Origin: Streptosporangiaceae bacterium
GTDB lineage: Bacteria > Actinomycetota > Actinomycetes > Streptosporangiales > Streptosporangiaceae
Direction: 5' to 3'
DNA: 9,434 nt
Assembly (NCBI GenBank): GCA_030052355.1
Contig: JASIGS010000370.1
Coordinates: 1 to 9,434 of the forward strand
Within the stretch, counting starts at the first letter, position 1. The number at the start of each line of letters is the position of its first letter. Positions 1,975 through 9,434 of this stretch are shown piece after piece. Under the pieces are notes generated by a model. That model saw nothing but the letters and a program-made list of their open reading frames with translations, had not been told where the DNA came from and searched no databases. A program made the position numbers and the translations under genes.

Positions 1975-1988
1975 GTGACCTTTGGGCC
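1975..1988 (-). promoter_or_regulatory. candidate DosR-type box upstream of usp
   Basis: The minus strand reads GGCCCAAAGGTCAC, about 10 of 14 positions matching the DosR core GGGACTWWAGTCCC. It shares the core CAAAGGTC with the candidate box at 7979-7992. It lies in the 122-nt gap between the flavoprotein stop and the usp start, centred about 97 nt before the usp ATG, so it could serve a second promoter inside the operon. The match is imperfect and judged by eye. Confidence 0.4.
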
Positions 1989-2006
1989 GCCTCCTGTGAT
2001 GCTCCG

Positions 2007-2441
2007 TCACGCGCCGTCGTGCGAGTGCCGGATGCGCCTGCCGGTGACGCGCGCCGGGGTGATGCTGATGAAGTGGTCCCTGGGGCCGCCAGCCCAGGCC
2101 ACTACCCCGGCGGCCTCGGCCGCCGCCCGCTCTCGCTCCGACTCGATGTGGTGAGCCGGGCCCTGAACCAGCACGCTCCACCCCTCGCGCGCGGCGACGT
2201 CGAACTCGTCGACCTCGAACGCCACCCGGAACTCCGCGTGCGATATGCCCGTGCGCAGGTCCTCGTCCGTCGAGCTGTCCTCCTCGGTCCGGAACAGCAC
2301 GGCACCGTCGTGGAACTTGTAGTTCACCGGCAACACGGTCAGGTCGTAACGTCCCGCGTAGACGAGCCTGCCGATGCCGCCTGGCGCGATGAGGCGCAGG
2401 CACTCGGCCTCGTCCAGACTTTCCAGCACAACATCGGACAC
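2007..2441 (-). CDS. pyridoxamine 5'-phosphate oxidase family (split-barrel flavoprotein)
   Basis: A 144-residue small cytosolic protein of the FMN/F420-binding split-barrel superfamily (Pyridox_ox_2 type). Characteristic blocks are GRLVYAGRYDLTVLPVNYKF (24-43), the flavin-binding strand pair; AVLFRT (47-52); FEVDEFD and WSVLVQGPAHHI (75-99); and the C-terminal ISITPARVTGRRI (125-137). Length is normal for the family. The GTG start at 2439-2441 follows AGGAG with 8 nt spacing (minus strand, about 2450-2455). Members reduce or bind diverse substrates, and the cofactor (FMN or F420) and substrate cannot be read here; true PNP oxidase activity is unlikely because these short paralogues usually lack it. 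It leads the usp / GNAT-AAA+ gene set and shares a 143-bp divergent promoter region with the HAD gene. Small proteins of this class recur in mycobacterial and streptomycete hypoxia regulons (known); the shared regulation here is inferred. Confidence 0.88.
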   Translation of the reverse strand: MSDVVLESLDEAECLRLIAPGGIGRLVYAGRYDLTVLPVNYKFHDGAVLFRTEEDSSTDEDLRTGISHAEFRVAFEVDEFDVAAREGWSVLVQGPAHHIESERERAAAEAAGVVAWAGGPRDHFISITPARVTGRRIRHSHDGA

Positions 2442-2531
2442 TGCGCACGCTCCTGTCCTGGGTTCGCGGTTAGCCGTCCCCTACCCGTGCCCTCCTGTCA
2501 CCATGCTGTCCGCGGTAGGCCGCAGCGAACA

Positions 2532-2545
2532 GGGCCGAAGGACCC
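2532..2545. promoter_or_regulatory. candidate DosR-type box between flavoprotein and HAD genes
   Basis: GGGCCGAAGGACCC is an imperfect palindrome with arms GGGCC and GGGTC, matching 10 of 14 positions of the DosR core. It lies between two divergent genes, centred 46 nt before the HAD GTG start and 97 nt before the flavoprotein start, so it could serve either or both. A weaker look-alike, CGGACTGTTGGCCG at 2554-2567, is centred exactly 22 bp away. Confidence 0.5.
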
Positions 2546-2571
2546 GCTGACGGCGGACTGTTGGCCGCGCC

Positions 2572-2584
2572 TACGCTGGAGACC
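2572..2584 (+). promoter_or_regulatory. putative -10 element of a leaderless HAD transcript
   Basis: TACGCT (2572-2577) fits the actinobacterial -10 pattern TAnnnT and ends 7 nt before the GTG at 2585, so transcription could begin at the start codon. There is no well-spaced Shine-Dalgarno sequence (GGAG lies only 3 nt upstream). A palindrome centred at -46 fits activation by a DosR-type factor. Prediction only. Confidence 0.4.
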
Positions 2585-3331
2585 GTGGCCGCAGGACTTC
2601 CGGACAGCATCAGGGCGTGCCTGTTCGATCTGGACGGCGTCCTGACACAGACCGCGTCCGTACACGACAAGGCCTGGAAGGCGACGTTCGACGTCTTCCT
2701 GCGCAGCCGAGCCGAGCGGGACGGCGTTCCTTTCGTTCCGTTCGACCCTGTTGCCGACTACGACCAGTATGTCGACGGCAAGCCCCGGCTGAACGGCGTC
2801 AGGTCGTTCCTCGGCGCGCGCGGCATCACGCTCCCGGAAGGCAACGACGACGACCCGCCCGGCAGCCCGACCGTGCACGGGCTGAGTAACGCCAAGAACC
2901 AGACACTGCTCAAGCTGCTCGCCGACGAAGGGGTCAAGCCCTACTCGGGCTCGGTTCGCTATCTGCAGGCCGTTCGGGCAGCTGGGCTCGCGACCGCGGT
3001 GGTGTCGTCCAGTGCCAACTGCCGCGCGGTCCTGGCTGCAGCCGGGCTGGCCGGCCAGTTTGGCGCCGTGGTTGACGGCGTGCTGGCAGCCGAGCAGCAC
3101 CTGGCCGGCAAGCCGGCGCCGGACACCTACCTGGCAGCGGCAACCGCCCTGGCCATGCCGCCTGCCGCCGCGGCGGTGTTCGAGGACGCTCTCGCAGGGG
3201 TCGAGGCCGGCCGGTCCGGCAGCTTCGGCTGGGTCGTCGGCGTCGACCGAGTCGGCCAGTCGGATGCGCTGCGCGCCGCTGGAGCCGACGTCGTGGTGAC
3301 CGATCTGGCCGACCTGCTGCCTGAGGCTTAA
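2585..3331 (+). CDS. HAD hydrolase, beta-phosphoglucomutase-like
   Basis: A 248-residue HAD subfamily IA enzyme. Motif I DLDGVLT holds nucleophile D15 and acid/base D17; motif II is the SSS cluster at 141-143; motif III is K176 in GKPAPD; motif IV is E200-D201 in VFEDA. A helical cap occupies about 25-110. By recall the sequence closely resembles mycobacterial Rv3400-type proteins, including [10 protein letters not shown] and the [11 protein letters not shown] stretch, a group annotated as beta-phosphoglucomutase and often paired with a GH65 trehalose/maltose phosphorylase. Such enzymes interconvert beta-glucose 1-phosphate and glucose 6-phosphate; a simple sugar-phosphate phosphatase is the alternative. 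No GH65 gene is present here. GTG 2585 was chosen because homology starts at [17 protein letters not shown] and a -10 is correctly spaced; TTG 2561 would add 8 residues. It ends 84 nt before the convergent alcohol dehydrogenase, with a strong terminator between them. Confidence 0.9.
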
Positions 3332-3370
3332 CCGGCACCGCTGGCGCGGACGCTCGAGTACCGGCAGCGA

Positions 3371-3415
3371 GACGAACGTCCCGGTCGTGCGGGAGCACGA
3401 CCGGGACGATTCGTT
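3371..3415. terminator. bidirectional hairpin terminator
   Basis: CGTCCCGGTCGTGC (3377-3390) pairs perfectly with GCACGACCGGGACG (3395-3408) over 14 bp around a GGGA tetraloop. With A3409 bulged, the stem extends by five or six pairs (3371-3376 with 3410-3415). There is no long T run on either strand, as is usual for actinobacterial intrinsic terminators. It sits between convergent genes and touches the stop codon of the alcohol dehydrogenase, so it can stop transcription from both sides. Confidence 0.85.
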
Positions 3416-4455
3416 CAGCGCGTCATCATCACCTTGATCGCGCCGGTGTCGGCGGCCCGCCCGAAGACGTCGTAGGCAGTCAGGATGTCGCCGAGCTCGA
3501 ACTTGTGGGTAACGAACCGCGCCGCGTTGATCTGGTGCGACTCCACCAGCCGCAGCAACGTGGCTGTCGAGGTGGCGTCGACCAGGCCGGTGGTCACCGT
3601 GATGTCACGGATCCACAGCGACTCCAGGTGCAGCGTCGCGGGCTTGCCATGCACTCCGATGTTCGCCACGTTGCCGCCAGGCCGGACCAGGCTCGTGCAC
3701 AACTCGAAGCTGGCCGGCACGCCGACGGCTTCGATCGCGACGTCGGCGCCCCGGCCGCCGGTGACGCTCTGCACGAAGGCCACCGCGTCCTCACGACCGT
3801 TGTTGACCGTCAGGTCAGCGCCGAACTGGGCGGCAGCTTCCAGCCGCGCGTCGGCCAGGTCGATCGCGATGACGTGACTGGGCGTGTAGAGCCTGGCGCC
3901 GGTGATCGCGGCCAGCCCCACCGGGCCCGCGCCCACGACCGCGATGGTCTGACCGGGTCCCACCCTGCCGTTCAGCACGCCAACCTCGTACCCGGTGGGC
4001 AGGATGTCGGCGAGCATGAGGATCTCTTCGTCCGCGACGCCATCCGGCACCGGGTACGTGGACGTGTCGGCGAACGGGACCCGCACGTACTCGGCCTGCG
4101 TGCCGTCGATCATGTAGCCGAAGATCCAGCCCCCGCCGCCGGTGCACTGACCGGGGTGGCCCTCCCGGCAGTACTGGCACCGCGCGCACGCCGAGATGCA
4201 CGAGACGAGGACCCGGTCGCCCGGGCGGACACCGGTGACACCCGGGCCTACAGCCTCGACCGTGCCGACCGCCTCGTGACCGAGTATCCGGCCGGCCGCC
4301 ACTTCGGGTGTGTCGCCCTTGAGGATGTGCAGATCCGTCCCGCAGATCGTGGTCGACTCGACGCGCACGATGGCGTCCGTCGTGTCCTTGATCACCGGGT
4401 CCGGGACATCCTCCCAGGCCTTCTTGCCGGGACCGTGATAGACCAGTGCCTTCAT
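3415..4455 (-). CDS. zinc-dependent alcohol dehydrogenase (MDR family)
   Basis: A 346-residue medium-chain dehydrogenase. Catalytic zinc ligands are C38 (ICGTD), H60 and E61 (GHE); four structural-zinc cysteines lie at C90, C93, C96 and C104; the Rossmann loop is GAGPVG (175-180) followed by D199 in VIAIDLAD, which suggests NAD(H) rather than NADP(H). Length is normal and no key residue is missing. It probably interconverts alcohols or diols with aldehydes or ketones, and under low oxygen could recycle NADH; the substrate cannot be read. The ATG at 4453-4455 was chosen because AGGAGG stands about 5 nt upstream and MKALVYHGPGKK is the family N-terminus; the longer in-frame extension to 4530 has no such support. 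It is convergent with the HAD gene and divergent from the SRPBCC-like gene. Two palindromes at 4523-4558 sit in its promoter region. Confidence 0.94.
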   Translation of the reverse strand: MKALVYHGPGKKAWEDVPDPVIKDTTDAIVRVESTTICGTDLHILKGDTPEVAAGRILGHEAVGTVEAVGPGVTGVRPGDRVLVSCISACARCQYCREGHPGQCTGGGGWIFGYMIDGTQAEYVRVPFADTSTYPVPDGVADEEILMLADILPTGYEVGVLNGRVGPGQTIAVVGAGPVGLAAITGARLYTPSHVIAIDLADARLEAAAQFGADLTVNNGREDAVAFVQSVTGGRGADVAIEAVGVPASFELCTSLVRPGGNVANIGVHGKPATLHLESLWIRDITVTTGLVDATSTATLLRLVESHQINAARFVTHKFELGDILTAYDVFGRAADTGAIKVMMTR

Positions 4456-4522
4456 GACCGCCTCCTGCGATGTGTGCCGCGTGGTCACGTTCAAGGCTCG
4501 TGTCCGCGCTGACCAGCGGCCA

Positions 4523-4536
4523 GGGCACAACGCCCC
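4523..4536 (-). promoter_or_regulatory. weak second DosR-like palindrome in the alcohol dehydrogenase promoter
   Basis: GGGCACAACGCCCC is an imperfect palindrome matching about 9 of 14 DosR-core positions. Its centre is exactly 22 bp from the centre of the better box at 4545-4558 and about 75 nt before the alcohol dehydrogenase ATG. It is included because of the regular spacing, not its score. Confidence 0.3.
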
Positions 4537-4544
4537 GCGGCACG

Positions 4545-4558
4545 GGTACCAACGTCCC
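4545..4558 (-). promoter_or_regulatory. candidate DosR-type box upstream of alcohol dehydrogenase
   Basis: The minus strand reads GGGACGTTGGTACC, 11 of 14 matches to the DosR core. It shares GGGACGTTGGT with the box at 6576-6589 in another intergenic region, which argues against chance. It lies about 97 nt before the alcohol dehydrogenase start codon. Confidence 0.55.
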
Positions 4559-4566
4559 GGCGTGCA

Positions 4567-4673
4567 TGTGGCGGGAGAGACCCGCCCGTTTCTCGCGGAT
4601 GCAGATTTCGCGGTGTGCTAGCCGGTACAGCGCCAGTAGCTCCGCGATCCCATATCTGGTCTCTCCCGCCACA
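4567..4673. repeat. 107-bp nested inverted-repeat element (MITE-like or structured RNA)
   Basis: Sixteen bases at 4567-4582 (TGTGGCGGGAGAGACC) are repeated perfectly in inverted orientation at 4658-4673. Inside, TCGCGGA (4593-4599) pairs with TCCGCGA (4641-4647), leaving exactly 10 unpaired bases on each side between the two stems, and GCTA/TAGC (4618-4621, 4637-4640) can extend the fold. No target-site duplication is obvious at the ends. It sits in the divergent region between the alcohol dehydrogenase and SRPBCC-like genes, flanked by palindromes on both sides. It could be a non-autonomous insertion element, a structured transcript or a DNA cruciform; an open minus-strand frame through it has no support as a gene. 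Confidence 0.75.
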
Positions 4674-4705
4674 ACCATCACAGCGTGCCCGCCCGCTGCC
4701 TGGCA

Positions 4706-4719
4706 GGGCCGTGAGTCCC
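4706..4719 (+). promoter_or_regulatory. distal DosR-type box of the SRPBCC-gene promoter
   Basis: GGGCCGTGAGTCCC matches 11 of 14 positions of the DosR core. Its centre lies 47 bp upstream of the perfect palindrome at 4753-4766 and 22 bp from the intermediate site at 4728-4741, forming the outer member of a three-site array. Confidence 0.45.
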
Positions 4720-4727
4720 CTTCCACC

Positions 4728-4741
4728 GGGACGTCTGGCAC
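4728..4741 (+). promoter_or_regulatory. middle DosR-like site of the SRPBCC-gene promoter
   Basis: GGGACGTCTGGCAC has an intact left arm GGGAC and a degenerate right arm (9 of 14 matches), like the asymmetric secondary sites known from mycobacterial DosR promoters. Its centre is 22 bp from the upstream site and 25 bp from the downstream palindrome, about two helical turns each. Confidence 0.35.
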
Positions 4742-4752
4742 GCCCGCCGCAC

Positions 4753-4766
4753 GGGACCTAGGTCCC
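4753..4766 (+). promoter_or_regulatory. perfect-palindrome DosR-type box
   Basis: GGGACCTAGGTCCC is a perfect 14-bp palindrome and matches the DosR core GGGACTWWAGTCCC at 12 of 14 positions. Its centre is 42.5 nt before the GTG at 4802, the standard position for a class II activator if transcription starts at that codon. A weak -10, TTCAAT (4790-4795), ends 6 nt before the GTG. This is the best such site in the window. Confidence 0.7.
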
Positions 4767-4801
4767 TATCGCCGCCAAGGCCGCGCGGTTTCAATGGGCC
4801 G

Positions 4802-5341
4802 GTGTTCGTGCACGAGGAAGCCGACCTTGACCTGAGCTTCGCCGCAGCCCAGGAGGTGCTGGCCGACCTTGCCCGTGGCGGCTTGCTCCTTAACGCCTCG
4901 CGTGCCGCTTACGGGGACGGGGTCACGGGCCTCGCGAGGGTCGGCCCTGTTGGCTCGGTCCGCGGCCTGTCGAGGCTGGTCAGGGTGGACATGGGGGACC
5001 CGGTCGTGCGCCGCGACTCGGCACATCTCGCGCTCAGGTGGCAGGCGACGGGGCCGGGCAGCGCGCTGTTCCCCGCTCTCGACGCTGACATCGAGATAGC
5101 GCCAGCCGCCGGCACGGGTACCAGGCTGACCATTGACGGGGTGTACCGGGCGCCGATGGGCACCATCGGGGCGGGCCTCGACCAGGCCGTGCTGAGCCGC
5201 GTCGCCGCCGCGACGATCCGGGACTTTGCCGGCCGGGTGGCGAAGGCCATCACCGCCATCGCCGCCGGCTCAGCACGCGCCGACCAGGCTCCGGGCGAGG
5301 GGCAGCCTGCCGAGCCGCCGCCCGCATCGCTGCTCCCTTAG
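4802..5341 (+). CDS. uncharacterised SRPBCC/START-like protein
   Basis: A 179-residue protein I do not recognise by name. Its layout fits the SRPBCC helix-grip fold: an opening strand FVHEEADLDL (2-11), a short helix FAAAQEVLADLARG (13-26), strands around 54-114 including SRLVRVDM, AHLALRWQATG and TRLTIDGVY, then a long C-terminal helix from about 125 to 155. The tail (156-179) is rich in Ala, Pro and Gln and is probably disordered. No catalytic motif, signal peptide or membrane segment is visible. Related folds bind lipids or other hydrophobic ligands, but no ligand can be assigned. No Shine-Dalgarno sequence precedes the GTG at 4802, while a -10-like TTCAAT and a perfect DosR-type box are placed as for a leaderless transcript starting there; GTG 4808 is an in-frame alternative. 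It ends 19 bp from the convergent STAS-PAS gene. Confidence 0.75.
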   Translation: MFVHEEADLDLSFAAAQEVLADLARGGLLLNASRAAYGDGVTGLARVGPVGSVRGLSRLVRVDMGDPVVRRDSAHLALRWQATGPGSALFPALDADIEIAPAAGTGTRLTIDGVYRAPMGTIGAGLDQAVLSRVAAATIRDFAGRVAKAITAIAAGSARADQAPGEGQPAEPPPASLLP

Positions 5342-5360
5342 CCAGCCGCGGACCACGGGT

Positions 5361-6452
5361 TCACTGGCGACCCGGCGGACCGCCTGCGCGCTCGTTGCCG
5401 AACAGGTGCTCACGTATCTCGTGCACCGTGTCGTCCAGTTGCCGCAGCGCCTCCGCTATGCGGTGCTTGGCGTGGTCGTGCGGCAGGTCGATCGCCCCCT
5501 GCAGGCTCAGGCCGACCTTATGCAGGTCGTTCACCACCCGGTCAAGCAGCTCGCGAGCGTGATGGCCGTGGCGTGCCGCCACGGCGCTACGGGCAAGATC
5601 GGCCAGATCACTGGCACGCTGCGACGGAGCGACGTCCCGCACGACGGCAAGAGTGAAGCGGCCCGTTGCGGTCGGCACCGGCTTCAGGCTGACGTTGACA
5701 GGGAACGTGGCACCGTCCTTGCGCAGCCCGACCAGCCTGCCCATCGCGCCCATCGGCCTGGCAGTCGGATGCTGGCTATACCGGGCGCGGTAGCCCTCGT
5801 GCGCGGCCCGAAGGCCGGCCGGAACAAGCAACTCCACCCGCTGGCCGATCAGCTCGCCGTGCCGGTAGCCGAACATCTCCTCCAGCCGCCGGTTGGCCAG
5901 CGCCAGGACGCCGTCGTCGTCGGCTAGCAGGACTCCGTCGTCCAGGGCGTCAACCAGCCGCCACAGTGCCGCCGGGGTGACCGTCGCCCGGTCCCCGCCT
6001 GCTGGCCCGGCCGCAGGTTCCTGCGACGACGACGCCGGGTCGGCCGCGCGCTGACCGTTGCCACGTTGCGTGCCAGGCCGTCGTGCCAGCGGGATCACCG
6101 TCCCGGGCACACTGGGCGCGAGCGCCGCCTCTACCGAGGGGTAGATCGACACCAGCCGGTCTAGCCCGTTCGCATCGAGCACCCGCCGCACAATCGGAGC
6201 CGTGACGACCAGGCGCAGCTGAGTCCCGCTGACCGCGGCACGGTGATGAGCGCGCACCAGGGCGTCCGCCCCGCCGTGATCGCAGGAGAGCGTGCCGCTC
6301 ATGTCCGCGACCAGCACCGCCGCGCCGCGGTTGATGAGGGTCAGCAGTTCCTCGCGGACATCCCCCGAGTTCGACGCGTCGATCTGCTCAGGCAGGGCCA
6401 CCACCGCCGCCTGGCGCACCCAGCGCACCGGGAGCAACGTCTCCTCAGACAC
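5361..6452 (-). CDS. STAS-PAS protein with degenerate histidine-kinase dimerisation region
   Basis: A 363-residue signalling protein. Residues 1-115 form a STAS (anti-anti-sigma) domain; ADMSGTLSCDHGG (49-61) aligns with the anti-sigma-antagonist loop, but glycine 60 replaces the usual phosphorylated serine. A Pro/Ala/Gly linker spans about 120-155. Residues 160-275 form a PAS domain with LANRRLEEMFGY (185-196), H218-EGYRARY, and RKDGATFPV (244-252). H218 occupies the position of the FixL haem-ligand histidine, though this His is also common in non-haem PAS domains. Residues 297-352 (LLDRVVNDLH...LSLQGA...DDTVHEIREHLFG) resemble the HisKA_3 helices of DosS/NarX-type kinases, retaining DLH with H311 but lacking about eight residues after it and having no HATPase domain. 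It may be a decoy or adaptor for a two-component sensor (inference). The GTG at 6450-6452 lacks a clear ribosome binding site. Confidence 0.85.
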   Translation of the reverse strand: MSEETLLPVRWVRQAAVVALPEQIDASNSGDVREELLTLINRGAAVLVADMSGTLSCDHGGADALVRAHHRAAVSGTQLRLVVTAPIVRRVLDANGLDRLVSIYPSVEAALAPSVPGTVIPLARRPGTQRGNGQRAADPASSSQEPAAGPAGGDRATVTPAALWRLVDALDDGVLLADDDGVLALANRRLEEMFGYRHGELIGQRVELLVPAGLRAAHEGYRARYSQHPTARPMGAMGRLVGLRKDGATFPVNVSLKPVPTATGRFTLAVVRDVAPSQRASDLADLARSAVAARHGHHARELLDRVVNDLHKVGLSLQGAIDLPHDHAKHRIAEALRQLDDTVHEIREHLFGNERAGGPPGRQ

Positions 6453-6575
6453 GGCGGCTGACCCGGGTGCGACCCGGCGCGAACTGAGCCGGGCAGGAAG
6501 CTGCGGTGAACGGGCGCACGCTGTCGGGCCCTCGGTTCTGGGTGAGCGGGCCGATGATGCCGCTCAGTCTAAGGG

Positions 6576-6589
6576 CGGACCAACGTCCC
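6576..6589. promoter_or_regulatory. candidate DosR-type box, distal of pair
   Basis: The minus strand reads GGGACGTTGGTCCG, 11 of 14 matches to the DosR core and nearly identical to the site at 4545-4558. It lies between the divergent STAS-PAS and aldolase genes, 130 nt from the first start and about 160 nt from the second, so it may serve either. Confidence 0.55.
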
Positions 6590-6611
6590 GCCGACCTCAG
6601 GCTGATGGGCT

Positions 6612-6625
6612 CTGACGAACGTCCC
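6612..6625. promoter_or_regulatory. candidate DosR-type box, proximal to aldolase
   Basis: The minus strand reads GGGACGTTCGTCAG: a strong arm GGGACGTT and a weaker opposite arm. It is centred 36 bp from the previous site, about three and a half helical turns. A transcript starting about 42 nt downstream (near 6655-6660) would just precede the AAGGAGG at 6656-6662. Confidence 0.4.
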
Positions 6626-6672
6626 CGGCGCCGCGCCAGGCTCAGGTCATGCGGCGAAGGAGGCAGCGTGCG

Positions 6673-6729
6673 ATGAAGCTGATGACAGCCGCGGTCCAGA
6701 CCGGTGAGCGCAACGGCGACGCAGGGTGA
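6673..6729 (+). CDS. possible 18-residue leader peptide before aldolase
   Basis: A short ORF, MKLMTAAVQTGERNGDAG, starts at ATG 6673 and is preceded by AAGGAGG (6656-6662) with a 10-nt gap, the strongest Shine-Dalgarno sequence in this intergenic region. Its TGA (6727-6729) lies 12 nt before the aldolase ATG, and the aldolase ribosome binding site AGGAG overlaps that stop. The arrangement would allow translational coupling. An in-frame ATG at 6649 would give 26 residues. I recognise no homologue, and no attenuator-like codon run is present; it may simply be a decayed or chance ORF. Confidence 0.3.
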   Translation: MKLMTAAVQTGERNGDAG

Positions 6730-6741
6730 GGAGACGCAGTG

Positions 6742-7635
6742 ATGAACCCCCGGCCACGCATCAACGACCTCGGCCTGAGCACAGGGAAAAAGGCGCGACT
6801 GCGCCGGATCCTGTATCAGAACGGACCGGGCAACGGCACCGCGATCTTGCTGCCCTATGACCAGGGGCTCGAGCACGGCCCGCGCGACTTCTCCGCCAAT
6901 CACCTGGCCAGTGATCCGGCCTACGTCATCCGGCTTGCCATCGAGGGCGGCTTCAGCGGCATCGCCCTGCAGATCGGTCTCGCCGAGAAGTTCTACTGGG
7001 ACTACGCCGGTGAAGTCCCGCTGGTCCTGAAGCTCAACGGGAAGACTGACATACCGTCAGGCATCGACCCGCTGTCGCCGCTGAACGCGACGGTGGCGGA
7101 CGCGGTCCGGCTCGGCGCCGACGCGGTCGGCTACACCCTCTACGTGGGCTCGCCGGCGCAGGAGCGCGACTTCAGCCAGTTCCGGCGCGTCCGCGAGGAC
7201 GCGGAACGACTCGGCATGCCGCTCATCGTGTGGTCCTACCCGCGCGGCGCGGCCGTCGACGCCAAGGGCGGCAAGGACTCGTTCTACGCGGTCGACTACG
7301 CCGCCAGGACGGCCAGCGAGCTCGGGGCCGACGTCGTCAAGGTCAACTTCCCGCACCCGGAGAAGCAGGCTGGCGTGCCGCCCGCCTACCAGGACGAGAT
7401 CTCCTCGCAGCACGCCATCGATGCCGTCGTCCGGTCCGCGAACAGGACGCTGCTGCTTGTCTCCGGCGGCGAGCGGGCCGACGACGCGGCCATGCTGGAG
7501 AAGGCAAGGCAGTCAATGGAGGCGGGCGCGACCGGCCTGATCTTCGGCCGGAACGTCTGGCAGCGACCGCACGAGGAGTCGCTGCACTTCGTCTCCGAGC
7601 TGCGGAAGATCCTGGCCAGGTACCCGTCAGCATGA
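6742..7635 (+). CDS. class I fructose-bisphosphate aldolase, DhnA/FbaB type
   Basis: A 297-residue TIM-barrel aldolase of the DeoC/FbaB (archaeal-type class I) family, cleaving fructose 1,6-bisphosphate to dihydroxyacetone phosphate and glyceraldehyde 3-phosphate through a Schiff base. Visible marks are the N-terminal LLPYDQGLEHGP (36-47, with D40), KLNGKT (97-102), WSYPRG (164-169, catalytic-type Tyr), the Schiff-base lysine K200 in ADVVKVNFP, SGGE (241-244) and the phosphate-binding FGRNVWQR (268-275). Length is normal and the protein looks complete. ATG 6742 was chosen, with AGGAG (6729-6733) 8 nt upstream; an adjoining GTG at 6739 would add one residue. The related fold also includes 2-amino-3,7-dideoxy-heptulosonate synthases, but the motifs favour the aldolase. 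It is the glycolytic/gluconeogenic member of the set and lies downstream of paired DosR-like boxes, suggesting induction with the low-oxygen genes. It ends 20 bp from the convergent whiB gene. Confidence 0.92.
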   Translation: MNPRPRINDLGLSTGKKARLRRILYQNGPGNGTAILLPYDQGLEHGPRDFSANHLASDPAYVIRLAIEGGFSGIALQIGLAEKFYWDYAGEVPLVLKLNGKTDIPSGIDPLSPLNATVADAVRLGADAVGYTLYVGSPAQERDFSQFRRVREDAERLGMPLIVWSYPRGAAVDAKGGKDSFYAVDYAARTASELGADVVKVNFPHPEKQAGVPPAYQDEISSQHAIDAVVRSANRTLLLVSGGERADDAAMLEKARQSMEAGATGLIFGRNVWQRPHEESLHFVSELRKILARYPSA

Positions 7636-7655
7636 CCCGCCCCGAGCCCGGGCAG

Positions 7656-7913
7656 TCACGCCGCCCTTTTCCGCCAGGCGCGTCGCCTTCGCTCGAGCCT
7701 CCGCTCGTGCAGGTTCATGCCACCCCAGATGCCGTGCTTGACGAACGTGCTCAGCGCCAGGTCCAGGCACTGAGTGCGCACCGGGCACTCCTCGCAGACG
7801 GCCCGCGCCAGCGCCTCTCTGGCCTCGCGTTCCGCCAGACCTTCGCCGTCCGGTCCGAAGAACAGCGCGGAGTCCGCGACCCGGCAAGCAACGTCGCGTT
7901 CCCAGACGAACAT
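7656..7913 (-). CDS. WhiB-family iron-sulfur transcriptional regulator
   Basis: An 85-residue WhiB-like protein. In this numbering the four [4Fe-4S] ligands are C10, C40, C43 and C49, in the family pattern C-xn-C-x2-C-x5-C. GIWGG (61-65) is the beta-turn that contacts the principal sigma factor, and the Arg/Lys-rich tail HERRLERRRRAWRKR is the usual DNA-binding end. All key residues are present. The start at ATG 7911-7913 was chosen because GGAGG (7920-7924) lies 6 nt upstream; the ATG at 7926-7928 would add MRRRW but has no Shine-Dalgarno sequence. Wbl proteins respond to O2, NO or redox state through the cluster and act with sigma-A. Which Wbl class this is cannot be settled by eye. It diverges from carbamate kinase, and a DosR-like box centred about 72 nt before this start could drive it. 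Confidence 0.95.
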   Translation of the reverse strand: MFVWERDVACRVADSALFFGPDGEGLAEREAREALARAVCEECPVRTQCLDLALSTFVKHGIWGGMNLHERRLERRRRAWRKRAA

Positions 7914-7978
7914 CCAGCGCCTCCGCATCAGTGACTCATGACCCCCGTCAGCACATCAGCGCGCGGCCACCATCGGCA

Positions 7979-7992
7979 GGGGCAAAGGTCCT
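7979..7992. promoter_or_regulatory. candidate DosR-type box between whiB and carbamate kinase
   Basis: GGGGCAAAGGTCCT matches 10 of 14 DosR-core positions and shares CAAAGGTC with the box before usp. From its centre, a start site about 42 nt away on the minus strand would give whiB a 30-nt leader with its GGAGG; on the plus strand it lies about 101 nt before carbamate kinase. The whiB assignment fits spacing better. Confidence 0.45.
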
Positions 7993-8086: not shown

Positions 8087-8992
8087 ATGAGGATCGTCGC
8101 CGCACTCGGTGGTAACGCCCTGCTGGAGCGGGGCGACAGGCCGGACTCTGACATTCAGCAATCACACGTAGAGCACGCGGTAGCGGCCCTGGCCCCGCTG
8201 GCGCACCAGCATGACCTGATCGTCACGCACGGGAACGGCCCGCAGGTGGGCATGCTGGCGCTCGAAAGCGCGCGGGATCCGGCGCTGTCGCATCCGTATC
8301 CATTCGACGTGCTGGGCGCTCAGACGCAAGGCATGATCGGCTACTGGCTGGTGCAGGCGCTGGCGGCGGCCATTCCCGGTGCGCGGGTCGGGTGCCTGAT
8401 CTGCCAGACCCGGGTCGACCCCGCCGATCCGGCGTTCGGCAATCCGACCAAGTTTGTCGGCCCGGTGTACCCGGAGGAGCAGGCTCGCGCCCTGGCCGCA
8501 GAGCGCGGCTGGACCATCGGCCGTGACGGTGTCGCCTGGCGCCGCGTGGTCGCATCCCCCGAGCCGCGCGAGATCGTGGAGATGTCCCTGATCAAGACGC
8601 TGATCGCAGCCGGGGTTCTGGTCGTGTGCGCCGGGGGCGGCGGTATCCCGGTGACGGCGGACGACGCCGGCGCGCTGCACGGCGTCGAAGCCGTGGTGGA
8701 CAAGGACCTGACGGCGGCGCTGCTCGCCGGTGCCGTGGACGCCGACGCGCTGTTGCTGCTGACCGACGTCGACTCGGTGACCGACGGCTTCGGCACCCCC
8801 GGCGCCCGGCCGGTCTCCCACGGCACGCCGGCCGAGCTGCGGGCACTGGCCCTGCCCGCTGGCTCCATGGGCCCCAAGGTCGAGGCCGCGTGCCGGTTCG
8901 CGGAGACGACCGGCCGGATCGCGGCGATCGGCCGCCTCGATGATGCGCAGGGGCTCCTGGCCGGGACCGCGGGCACGACCGTGCGCCGGTAG
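8087..8992 (+). CDS. arcC: carbamate kinase
   Basis: A 301-residue amino-acid-kinase-fold enzyme. It makes ATP from carbamoyl phosphate and ADP, the last step of the arginine deiminase pathway. Family blocks are ALGGNALL (6-13), THGNGPQVG (47-55), CQTRVDP (106-112), the inserted PYP-lid region (about 120-165), CAGGGGIPV (181-189), VVDKDLTAALLA (203-214), LLLTDVDSV (223-231) and GSMGPKVEAA (259-268). Length matches the family, and no key residue is missing. The ATG at 8087 was chosen because homology begins exactly there. An in-frame extension to 7931 is unsupported. No ribosome binding site precedes it; CACATT (8074-8079) could be a -10 for a leaderless transcript. It converges with an ornithine carbamoyltransferase gene, its pathway partner, rather than sharing an operon with it. 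Substrate-level ATP formation without oxygen suits the hypoxia theme. Confidence 0.96.
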   Translation: MRIVAALGGNALLERGDRPDSDIQQSHVEHAVAALAPLAHQHDLIVTHGNGPQVGMLALESARDPALSHPYPFDVLGAQTQGMIGYWLVQALAAAIPGARVGCLICQTRVDPADPAFGNPTKFVGPVYPEEQARALAAERGWTIGRDGVAWRRVVASPEPREIVEMSLIKTLIAAGVLVVCAGGGGIPVTADDAGALHGVEAVVDKDLTAALLAGAVDADALLLLTDVDSVTDGFGTPGARPVSHGTPAELRALALPAGSMGPKVEAACRFAETTGRIAAIGRLDDAQGLLAGTAGTTVRR

Positions 8993-9023: not shown

Positions 9024-9434
9024 TTAGCCCTCCGGCGGCTCGAGCACGGACAGCTGTTCTGGTGGCACGATCGTGGCCAGCATCGTGGCCTTGATCGTGT
9101 GCATCCTGTTCTCGGCCTGGTCGAACACGATCGATGCCGCGGACTCAAACACGTCATCGGTGACCTCGAGGGCATCGATGCCGCGCTTGTCATAGATCTG
9201 CTGGCCGATCTGCGTGTGCCGGTTGTGCAAGGCCGGCAGGCAGTGCATGAACCTGACCGCGGGGTTACCGGTGGCTGCCAGCACGGCCGCGTTCACCTGG
9301 TAGGGCAGCAGCTGATCGATGCGCTGGTCCCACTTCTCCGGCGGTTCGCCCATCGACAGCCACACGTCGGTGTAGATGAAGTCGGTGCCAAGCACCGCGG
9401 GGCCGACGTCATCGGTCACCGTCAGCCGGGCACC
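9024..9434 (-). CDS. arcB: ornithine carbamoyltransferase, C-terminal part (truncated by window edge)
   Basis: The last 136 residues of an ornithine carbamoyltransferase whose N-terminus lies beyond 9434; full-length family members have roughly 310-340 residues. The reading frame is open through the window edge, so the GTG at 9419 is internal. The visible part holds [12 protein letters not shown], the ornithine-binding [11 protein letters not shown] loop with its catalytic-type Cys, [27 protein letters not shown] and the final helix. The carbamoyl-phosphate motif (STRT type) would lie outside. The FES...[13 protein letters not shown] block resembles catabolic ArcB enzymes, and carbamate kinase next door supports phosphorolysis of citrulline to ornithine and carbamoyl phosphate; biosynthetic ArgF cannot be excluded from this fragment. 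Arginine deiminase, if present, should lie upstream on this strand, outside the window. Its stop is 31 bp from that of the convergent carbamate kinase. Confidence 0.93.

Follow-up and report, generated by a model that had tools for sequence, protein, structure and literature searches.

DrrS (MTS1338) of Mycobacterium tuberculosis is a small RNA about 100 nt in length. It is structured and under the control of DosR, whose site lies 34 bp upstream of the start and overlaps the -35 element, and it is unusually stable, a property in which its 5' stem-loop is involved (PMC5360333). DevR/DosR of M. tuberculosis is a NarL-type regulator that binds cooperatively to one, two or more boxes before its targets (PMC3029386). 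For OsdR of S. coelicolor, the sites of the four top-scoring entries fall in the range -81 to -158, mostly near -81 to -102 (PMC5069765). Outside mycobacteria, OsdR/DosR-type regulons have so far been described via protein genes.

We have analyzed a stretch of 9,434 nucleotides (the window) from an actinobacterium close to Streptosporangiales MAGs. With a probability of roughly 80%, it is part of a DosR/OsdR hypoxia/dormancy regulon island in which the minus strand of 4567-4673 is a small structured RNA gene of ~100 nt. The features of the window are as follows; boxes and the terminator hairpin carry no strand.

1330-1884, minus: universal stress protein (Usp; PF00582, scanned as the longer ORF 1330-2448)
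1975-1988: weak DosR-type box, before Usp
2007-2441, minus: split-barrel flavoprotein Pyridox_ox_2 (PdxOx; PF12900)
2532-2545: DosR/OsdR-type box between PdxOx and HAD, with the top OsdR-matrix score of the window (9.9)
2561-3331, plus: HAD hydrolase, beta-phosphoglucomutase subfamily (domain search)
3377-3408: putative terminator, a perfect 14-bp hairpin where two genes converge
3415-4455, minus: Zn-dependent alcohol dehydrogenase (ADH), with a 93% identical ortholog in the relative G001
4545-4558: DosR-type box between the RNA and ADH, conserved in L001
4567-4673, minus: putative small RNA driven by DosR, a structured element between ADH and the CoxG-like gene (covariance-model span 4572-4668)
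4669-4682, minus: -10-like stretch TGTGATGGTTGTGG immediately preceding the RNA and resembling the family consensus
4706-4719: proximal DosR-type box, a 14-mer (GGGACTCACGGCCC on the minus strand), lying at -51 relative to the model 5' end; it aligns with L001 and is conserved there
4728-4741: distal DosR-type box at -73, 22 bp further upstream (OsdR-matrix score 5.0)
4753-4766: exact palindrome GGGACCTAGGTCCC, at -98 for the RNA and 36 bp before the CoxG-like start; perhaps a third box or a divergent one; not conserved in L001
4802-5341, plus: CoxG/polyketide-cyclase-like protein (PF10604, E 2.4e-4, a weak match under the curated cut-off)
5361-6452, minus: STAS-PAS protein (domain search)
6576-6589: DosR-type box between the divergent STAS-PAS and FbaB genes
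6612-6625: DosR-type box in the same region, 36 bp from box 6576
6739-7635, plus: class I fructose-bisphosphate aldolase type (DeoC/FbaB; under the curated NCBIfam cut-off)
7656-7928, minus: WhiB-type protein (PF02467)
7979-7992: weak DosR-type box, with WhiB (51 bp) on one side and carbamate kinase on the other
8087-8992, plus: carbamate kinase (domain search)
9024-9434, minus: ornithine carbamoyltransferase, C-terminal part (PF00185), running past the window end

Palindromic sites and their probable regulator

An earlier note on this DNA had listed eight palindromes of the form GGGAC-N4-GTCCC, and all of them are present. The site at 4753 has no mismatch; those at 4545, 4706 and 6576 have one, those at 2532, 6612 and 7979 two, and that at 1975 three. 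The strings described as shared are likewise there: GGGACGTTGGT at 4545 and 6576 on the minus strand, and CAAAGGTC at 1975 (minus) and 7979 (plus). Sites were scored with a matrix made from 25 distinct S. coelicolor OsdR sites, which are predicted and in part EMSA-tested (Table 1, PMC5069765). By this matrix 1975 and 7979 score 1.1 and 3.3, and the other six noted sites and 4728 score 5.0-9.9. Taken alone, 1975 and 7979 are weak. They are favoured because their distances to a start codon, counted from the sequence (91 bp from 1975 to Usp, 95 bp from 7979-7992 to carbamate kinase), are like those of 2532 (91 bp, PdxOx) and 4545 (90 bp, ADH), which is a plain count rather than a comparison with chance.

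With up to two mismatches allowed, the motif has 11 matches in 1195 intergenic positions versus 7 in 8239 coding ones (Fisher p = 1.8e-6). When the intergenic stretches were dinucleotide-shuffled, the mean was 1.33 matches and the maximum 6, so that none of 1000 shuffles reached 11; at one mismatch or fewer, 5 intergenic matches are observed versus a shuffle mean of 0.10. A chance origin of the motif fails on both the intergenic excess and the shuffles, and the DosR-type palindromes upstream of the window genes are above chance level, as is expected of a DosR/OsdR regulon. Seven of the 11 matches are sites of the earlier note (1975 is not among them) and four are new (3369, 4728, 7931 and 9001). 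The match at 3369 overlaps the terminator hairpin. At a score of at least 6 the OsdR matrix finds 8 intergenic and 4 coding matches in the window, and its third best match (867) is coding. In the relative Trebonia kvetii, where the background frequency of the motif was checked, the strict form (one mismatch or fewer) is absent from 56 kb of intergenic background and has 8 occurrences in the 16.6 kb of intergenic sequence that surrounds dosR, the RNA, FbaB and ADH. Upstream of FbaB, a site at up to two mismatches is found at 37 of 64 loci versus 25.3 expected from shuffles; this excess is modest, and fbaB alone is therefore not taken as proof.

The gene content (Usp, PdxOx, ADH, aldolase, WhiB and carbamate kinase) fits DosR/OsdR regulons, as had been proposed. 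The window is without dosR and dosS, in line with the suggestion that the regulator acts from elsewhere, and all 7 relatives searched carry an evident DosR ortholog (61-66% identity); in T. kvetii dosR adjoins a GAF-GAF-HisKA_3-HATPase kinase, which is the DosS architecture. Real intergenic palindromes, fitting genes and DosR in every relative searched thus largely support the earlier reading, and the palindromes look like genuine sites of a low-oxygen response regulator. Boxes 4706 and 4728 (perhaps also 4753) call for a reading that the note did not foresee. Judged from sequence, their likeliest role is that of a promoter for a minus-strand small RNA gene, beyond simply serving the flanking protein genes.

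A proposed structured RNA between ADH and the CoxG-like gene

The element is ~100 nt long and has a three-way-junction fold, made up in the window of a perfect 16-bp closing stem, a P2 hairpin and a P3 hairpin with a GAGAA loop. It forms an inverted repeat, its fold has a z of -5.8, both of its strands fold well, and its ortholog in G001 is 89% identical. Model R1 was made from an alignment of three related sequences from two relatives, obtained through weak blastn matches to the window element. R1 matches the window copy, which is absent from it, with 36.9 bits (E 1.9e-4 in 1.22 Mb), and R2, in which that copy is included, scores it at 58.2 bits. Alignments A2-A4, in which inspection by eye showed the closing stem out of register, were left out of the models. 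Among 15 whole genomes searched at E<=1, R1 matched 8: both genomes that supplied the seed, Planosporangium G013 and five more. The Planosporangium matches (L146 and L152) are regarded as chance, being without boxes or the conserved core by eye, with R2 and R3 silent there. An R3 match at L231:5602-5690 was rejected likewise (E 0.077, without boxes, in a TetR-type coding frame by eye).

In the outer stem, P1, 13 of 13 pairs show changes on both sides. Over the whole structure 86.0% of cells pair, versus 36.8-49.2% when the partners are slid by 1-3 columns; among 84 distinct sequences the values are 89.1% and 36.8-48.8%. The inner P2 pairs hold in just 71% of cells (67%, as helix 3, in the 84-sequence set). 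The sequence between the stem arms is the most conserved part of the element, the internal hairpins are conserved too, and two unpaired parts are near-invariant, the GAGAA loop and the AUC linker that joins P2 to P3. Wobble counts (148 G-U versus 136 A-C cells) do not decide the strand, and inspection by eye revealed no clear U-tract terminator.

No Rfam 15 covariance model matched over the window element up to E 5, or on the element's strand in 12 + 11 further loci up to E 1. A sub-threshold mir-615 match (E 0.11) overlaps L142 on the other strand. No mention of this RNA was found in the literature passages available, as distinct from supplementary sRNA tables, where single members may already be listed. 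A core 14-mer (as DNA, reverse complement or in RNA spelling) was met in one paper of the literature searched, with a virus protein as its subject by title and abstract. The element appears to be a previously uncatalogued RNA (Rfam 15 is without it), shared with other soil actinobacteria including many Streptomyces.

Upstream boxes, distribution and neighbours of the RNA element

Of all the palindromes in the window, those in the tightest cluster stand before the RNA element, at a distance typical of the family. The spacing of the boxes was examined in two sets of members (35 and 49) at an OsdR-matrix score of at least 6, in a proximal slot near -52 (7 offsets) and a distal slot near -74 (8 offsets). 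The proximal slot is filled in 18/35 and 30/49 members, the distal slot in 9/35 and 10/49 (19/84 in all), and one or the other in 23/35 and 33/49 (56/84 in all); control slots average 0.6-0.7%. The remaining 28 of 84 members have no box of this score in either slot, and L156 and L175 have none by eye. A site within 120 bp lies upstream in 60 of 86 members and downstream in 19. In the window the boxes might simply serve the protein genes of an ordinary DosR regulon island, the RNA element being incidental: gene content and boxes fit known regulons (PMC5069765, Table 1), and box 4753 stands close to the CoxG-like start (36 bp). The box-to-RNA distance is nevertheless kept across loci with differing protein neighbours, and we consider this explanation quite unlikely.

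The RNA is present in 24 of 345 genomes of the closest relative's order, as one copy in 17 and as 2-4 copies in 7, and in 64 of 199 sampled Streptomyces under strict filters. It was not found in viral contigs (one exact-pattern scan) or phages. The multiple copies, the long perfect terminal inverted repeat and wobble counts that favour neither strand would suit a DNA element instead of an RNA gene, that is, a mobile or repeat palindrome (MITE/REP-like), a DNA cruciform or a protein-binding site. Such an element is very unlikely given the single copy in most carriers, conservation that centres on the sequence between the arms and extends to the internal hairpins, and a regulator site at a set distance and mainly on one side.

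A cis-acting leader deserves mention since ADH follows on the same strand both in the window (112 bp) and in G001 (L001/L145; 133 bp); the element would then be a structured ADH 5' UTR, acting as a riboswitch or stability leader in a DosR-box transcript that reads through into ADH. Across the family the downstream gene is on the RNA strand in 15, opposed in 16 and absent in 3 of 34 loci, and in 16, 29 and 6, respectively, of 51 further loci. By these crude gene calls the 85 loci together give 31 same, 45 opposed and 9 none, which is not the co-direction expected of a leader or riboswitch. The copy at L137 sits between the ends of two convergent genes; the one at L138 is opposed to the genes on either side. 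In addition, ADH has its own box, conserved in L001, between the RNA and the gene; this separate box, 90 bp before the ADH start, would serve ADH. A leader is thus improbable, and a small RNA gene with its own promoter is the preferred reading.

Outside the order set, 16 of 20 RNA genomes have a DosR match, and 9 of these 16 have the RNA no more than 30 kb away from a dosR gene (87 bp in G518); the other 4 of 20 have no DosR match at E<=1e-60. At order level DosR is found in 23 of 24 RNA genomes versus 302 of all 345, and this co-occurrence is uninformative because DosR is so widespread anyway. The 63 flanking proteins include 7 CBS, 6 BON, 2 HSP20, 2 PdxOx and 1 Usp, counted without a control set. 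The genomes lacking a DosR match, and the many GerE-type domains in the relatives (41 matches in G001), could point to a different regulator of the NarL/LuxR type whose site is similar. This too is unlikely, as the RNA adjoins or sits near dosR in several genomes and the sites match the published OsdR matrix.

Proposed action and comparison with known systems

The element is best read as a DosR/OsdR-driven small RNA analogous to DrrS. Low oxygen or NO would activate a DosS-type kinase and a DosR encoded elsewhere, as the orthologs in relatives suggest, and DosR would bind the boxes at about -52 and -74. RNA polymerase would start at the base of the closing stem, as predicted from the box distance and the -10-like sequence. 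The transcript would fold into the three-way junction that covariation indicates, its 5' and 3' ends held in a 12-16 bp stem, and with its ends so tied it should be long-lived. In what is the weakest step, it might act in trans, through the AUC linker and the GAGAA loop, on mRNAs or on a protein of the dormancy response.

We judge it somewhat more probable than the contrary that the DosR/OsdR hypoxia switch of filamentous actinobacteria has, as a standing output, a conserved and structured RNA acting in trans. This RNA would form a post-transcriptional branch of dormancy with an origin separate from that of mycobacterial DrrS, present in about a third or more of Streptomyces. If so, hypoxic dormancy would gain a post-transcriptional layer in the shape of a widespread RNA before which the boxes of the regulator keep a set spacing. 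The family comes with a ready condition (low oxygen, NO) and a regulator for expression tests in harmless Streptomyces, among whose carriers of the element is S. tropicalis K1PA1 (G707:C56:405215-405304), and it could serve genome annotation as a regulon marker.

The window resembles the DevR/DosR regulon, as far as that is described in the source available, in having single or multiple boxes before targets, and differs in being without dosR and dosS. To our knowledge, the DevR/DosR core list does not include aldolase, carbamate kinase or STAS-PAS. The OsdR regulon of S. coelicolor (SCO0204/SCO0203) has the same type of palindrome, and its predicted targets share Usp, Zn-dehydrogenase and pyridoxamine oxidase with the window; the targets in its Table 1 are protein-coding, and the word sRNA is absent from the paper (PMC5069765). 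By the accessible part of its description, DrrS, unlike the RNA proposed here, arises from a longer transcript by 3' processing, and its core promoter was still responsive to DosR when the site was absent (PMC5360333). The present family, from Streptosporangiales-order and Streptomyces-type genomes, is likened to DrrS apart from any comparison of sequence or structure, as a structured small RNA of similar size with a DosR-type site upstream. The box ends ~37 bp before the model 5' end, or ~32 bp before the stem base, where the start is predicted, versus 34 bp in DrrS.

Palindromes in the window and their background

Every position at which the earlier note had placed one of eight palindromes of the form GGGAC-N4-GTCCC was borne out, with 0 to 3 mismatches to that motif. 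With up to two mismatches allowed, the window has 11 matches over 1195 intergenic positions versus 7 over 8239 coding positions (Fisher 1.8e-6). Shuffled intergenic stretches gave a mean of 1.33 and a maximum of 6 such matches, and none of 1000 shuffles reached 11. Seven of the 11 are among the eight sites previously listed; site 1975, having three mismatches, falls outside this count. The other four lie at 3369, 4728, 7931 and 9001, of which 7931 and 9001 carry two mismatches each. Distances from site to start codon, counted from the sequence, are nearly equal: 91 bp for Usp, 91 for the Pyridox_ox_2 flavoprotein, 90 for the alcohol dehydrogenase (ADH) and 95 for carbamate kinase. Published S. 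coelicolor OsdR sites supplied a matrix independent of the window; it likewise favours intergenic DNA, with 8 intergenic versus 4 coding matches at scores of 6 or more, and sites 1975 (1.1) and 7979 (3.3) score low. In the ADH promoter region, sites 4545 and 4706 are aligned and conserved in locus L001 of the closest relative, MAG JOPF160 (G001); 4728 and 4753 are not. Motif match 3369 overlaps a hairpin (3377-3408; 14 perfectly paired bp, loop of 4 nt) that lies where the HAD and ADH genes converge and that we read as a two-way terminator.

The background frequency of the motif was assessed in Trebonia kvetii, with crude gene calls by GC-frame. At no more than one mismatch, 15 arbitrary stretches held no match in 56,349 intergenic bases and 7 in 243,651 coding bases, while the five stretches (100 kb) that surround dosR, the RNA described below, the class I aldolase gene fbaB and ADH held 8 in 16,610 and 4 in 83,390, respectively; the same comparison in the window gives 5 in 1,256 and 2 in 8,178. 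Because the strict matches in T. kvetii concentrate around regulon loci, the strict motif marks the regulon and not intergenic DNA in general. The contrast is weaker at up to two mismatches (intergenic 1.39 per kb in regulon stretches versus 0.62 in background; coding 0.76 and 0.71); the OsdR matrix at scores of 8 or more gives 0.42 versus 0.23 intergenic matches per kb.

Genes of the island and the DosR regulator

Pfam and NCBIfam matches identify the window proteins as AAA+GNAT, Usp, Pyridox_ox_2, HAD (beta-phosphoglucomutase family), Zn-ADH, a weakly matching CoxG-like protein, STAS-PAS, a class I FBP-aldolase type, WhiB, carbamate kinase and OTC. The first of these (11-1333) is a single reading frame in which a GNAT acetyltransferase domain is joined to an AAA ATPase domain. 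In JOPF160, ADH (93% identity), aldolase (87-88%), carbamate kinase (80%) and OTC (84%) are grouped together; no CoxG, STAS-PAS or WhiB gene was found on that contig (L001 1-5446, ADH-FbaB-carbamate kinase-OTC).

All 7 relatives searched encode a DosR-type regulator (61-66% identity); other members of the regulator family in these genomes show 36-45%, except for second or partial DosR copies in G002 and G003. In G002, a DosR-like fragment ends an 8.6-kb contig (C695) that also carries an ADH ortholog. In T. kvetii a GAF-GAF-HisKA_3-HATPase kinase adjoins dosR. The best PDB match of the DosR-type regulator is DevR (3c3w, E 1.7e-74). Its gene also lies in the aldolase neighbourhood (flank up to 10 kb) at nine actinobacterial loci, which suggests that fbaB is a regular regulon member.

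Aldolase loci with a DosR-type regulator gene nearby: L006, L007, L014, L017, L018, L020, L024, L031, L064

On sequence evidence a DosR/OsdR island at the window is well supported, and DosR would presumably bind its sites.

A proposed structured RNA upstream of ADH

The region upstream of ADH contains a perfect 16-bp inverted repeat with arms 75 bp apart, and these features:

Window 4567-4673, minus strand: putative small structured RNA
Window 4706: proximal DosR-type box of the RNA
Window 4728: distal DosR-type box of the RNA

The RNA element, which is 89% identical in JOPF160, folds much more stably than its shuffled versions (z -5.8, minus strand). Weak blastn matches in two relatives turned out to be copies of this element whose stem arms differ yet stay complementary. 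A covariance model (R1) built from three aligned sequences of these two relatives, with the window copy left out, detects that copy at 36.9 bits, a detection not wholly independent since the seeds were found via the window sequence. The second model (R2; 16 members, window included) found the element in 24 of 345 genomes of JOPF160's order (35 places), 17 of 394 genomes sampled across the class (JOPF160 included) and 64 of 199 sampled from the genus of S. tropicalis, counts that are probably lower bounds since searches over more than 40 genomes ran with stricter filters. Among 39 named genomes R2 matched four, namely all four Streptomyces; a wider model (R3) matched two of the 39, both Streptomyces, and added nothing. 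A Streptomyces plasmid (NBC_01276) holds a degenerate copy (25.2 bits) between two CBS genes, where no feature is annotated. Scans of the window and further loci against Rfam 15 gave no match on the strand of the element.

The consensus consists of a closing stem, P1, and two hairpins, P2 and P3. In alignments fitted to the structure, a bias in its favour, 34 distinct sequences show changes on both sides in 13 of 13 P1 pairs and pairing in 86.0% of cells overall, versus 36.8-49.2% with the partner slid; 84 distinct sequences show 89.1% versus 36.8-48.8%, with both-side changes in 23 of 30 pairs. The weak point is inner P2 (71% and 67% of cells, respectively). Among unpaired positions, conservation is highest for A-T-C in the linker joining P2 and P3 and for G-A..G-A-A in the loop of P3. 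Both strands fold well and wobble cells (148 G-U versus 136 A-C) do not tell the strand; we infer the minus strand in the window because the promoter boxes sit on that upstream side.

Proposed promoter and neighbourhood of the RNA

The upstream flank lies outside every model. It was examined for OsdR-matrix scores of at least 6 in a proximal slot of 7 offsets and a distal slot of 8, after removal of 2 near-duplicates from 86 members. Among the 35 order-set members, which include the window, 18 have such a score in the proximal slot, 9 in the distal slot and 23 in at least one of the two; among the 49 class/Streptomyces members the counts are 30, 10 and 33. Control slots reach that score in 0.6-0.7% on average and in at most 5.9% and 4.1%. 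In 21 of the 49 class/Streptomyces members the best site sits at exactly -52; where both boxes are seen, some 22 bp separate them. Sites within 120 bp lie upstream in 60 of 86 members and downstream in 19. At L156 and L175 no DosR boxes were seen by eye upstream of the RNA, where there is a -10-like stretch, TATACT; these copies may be paralogs that are controlled differently.

Outside the order set, 16 of 20 genomes with the RNA have a DosR match, and in nine of the 16 the RNA is within 30 kb of dosR: 87 bp in G518 (C1:192922-193737), about 3-8 kb in six, and 14 and 28 kb in two. The remaining seven have it at a greater distance or on a different contig. G623, G405, G602 and G704 gave no DosR match at E<=1e-60, although the copies in the first two (L178, L179) still reach matrix scores of 9.2 and 11.3. 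Among the order-set matches listed, the distance is about 12-19 kb in T. kvetii, G062 and G063.

By crude gene calls, the nearest gene downstream is on the strand of the RNA at 15 loci, opposite at 16 and absent at 3 of 34, and in a second set at 16, 29 and 6 of 51. At L137 the genes on either side of the copy converge on it, and at L138 both neighbouring genes run opposite to the copy. These placements argue against a cis leader. In an uncontrolled tally of flanking proteins (63 scanned of 67 called), CBS and Fer4_22 were found 7 times each, BON 6, HSP20 and Pyridox_ox_2 twice each and Usp once; MFS and ABC transporters also occur. At L162, L166 and L168 the RNA lies between a Fer4_22 iron-sulphur protein and a Pyridox_ox_2 or CBS-BON protein; L167 has Fer4_22 on one side. 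An ADH-like gene adjoining the copy at L136 (735-1716) is seemingly split over two frames.

Covariation, box spacing and neighbourhood together strongly support the prediction that the element is a conserved gene for a structured RNA, driven from a DosR promoter. Our best guess is that it would be a regulator acting in trans, since it is independent of its neighbours and two short unpaired sequences are nearly unchanged. In the window, about 37 bp separate the end of the box from the model's 5' end. In M. tuberculosis, as described in PMC5360333, the primary DosR site overlaps the -35, and for the DosR-controlled small RNA DrrS the site is located 34 bp ahead of the start. We liken the element to DrrS in its proposed control logic only, and do not file it as DrrS.
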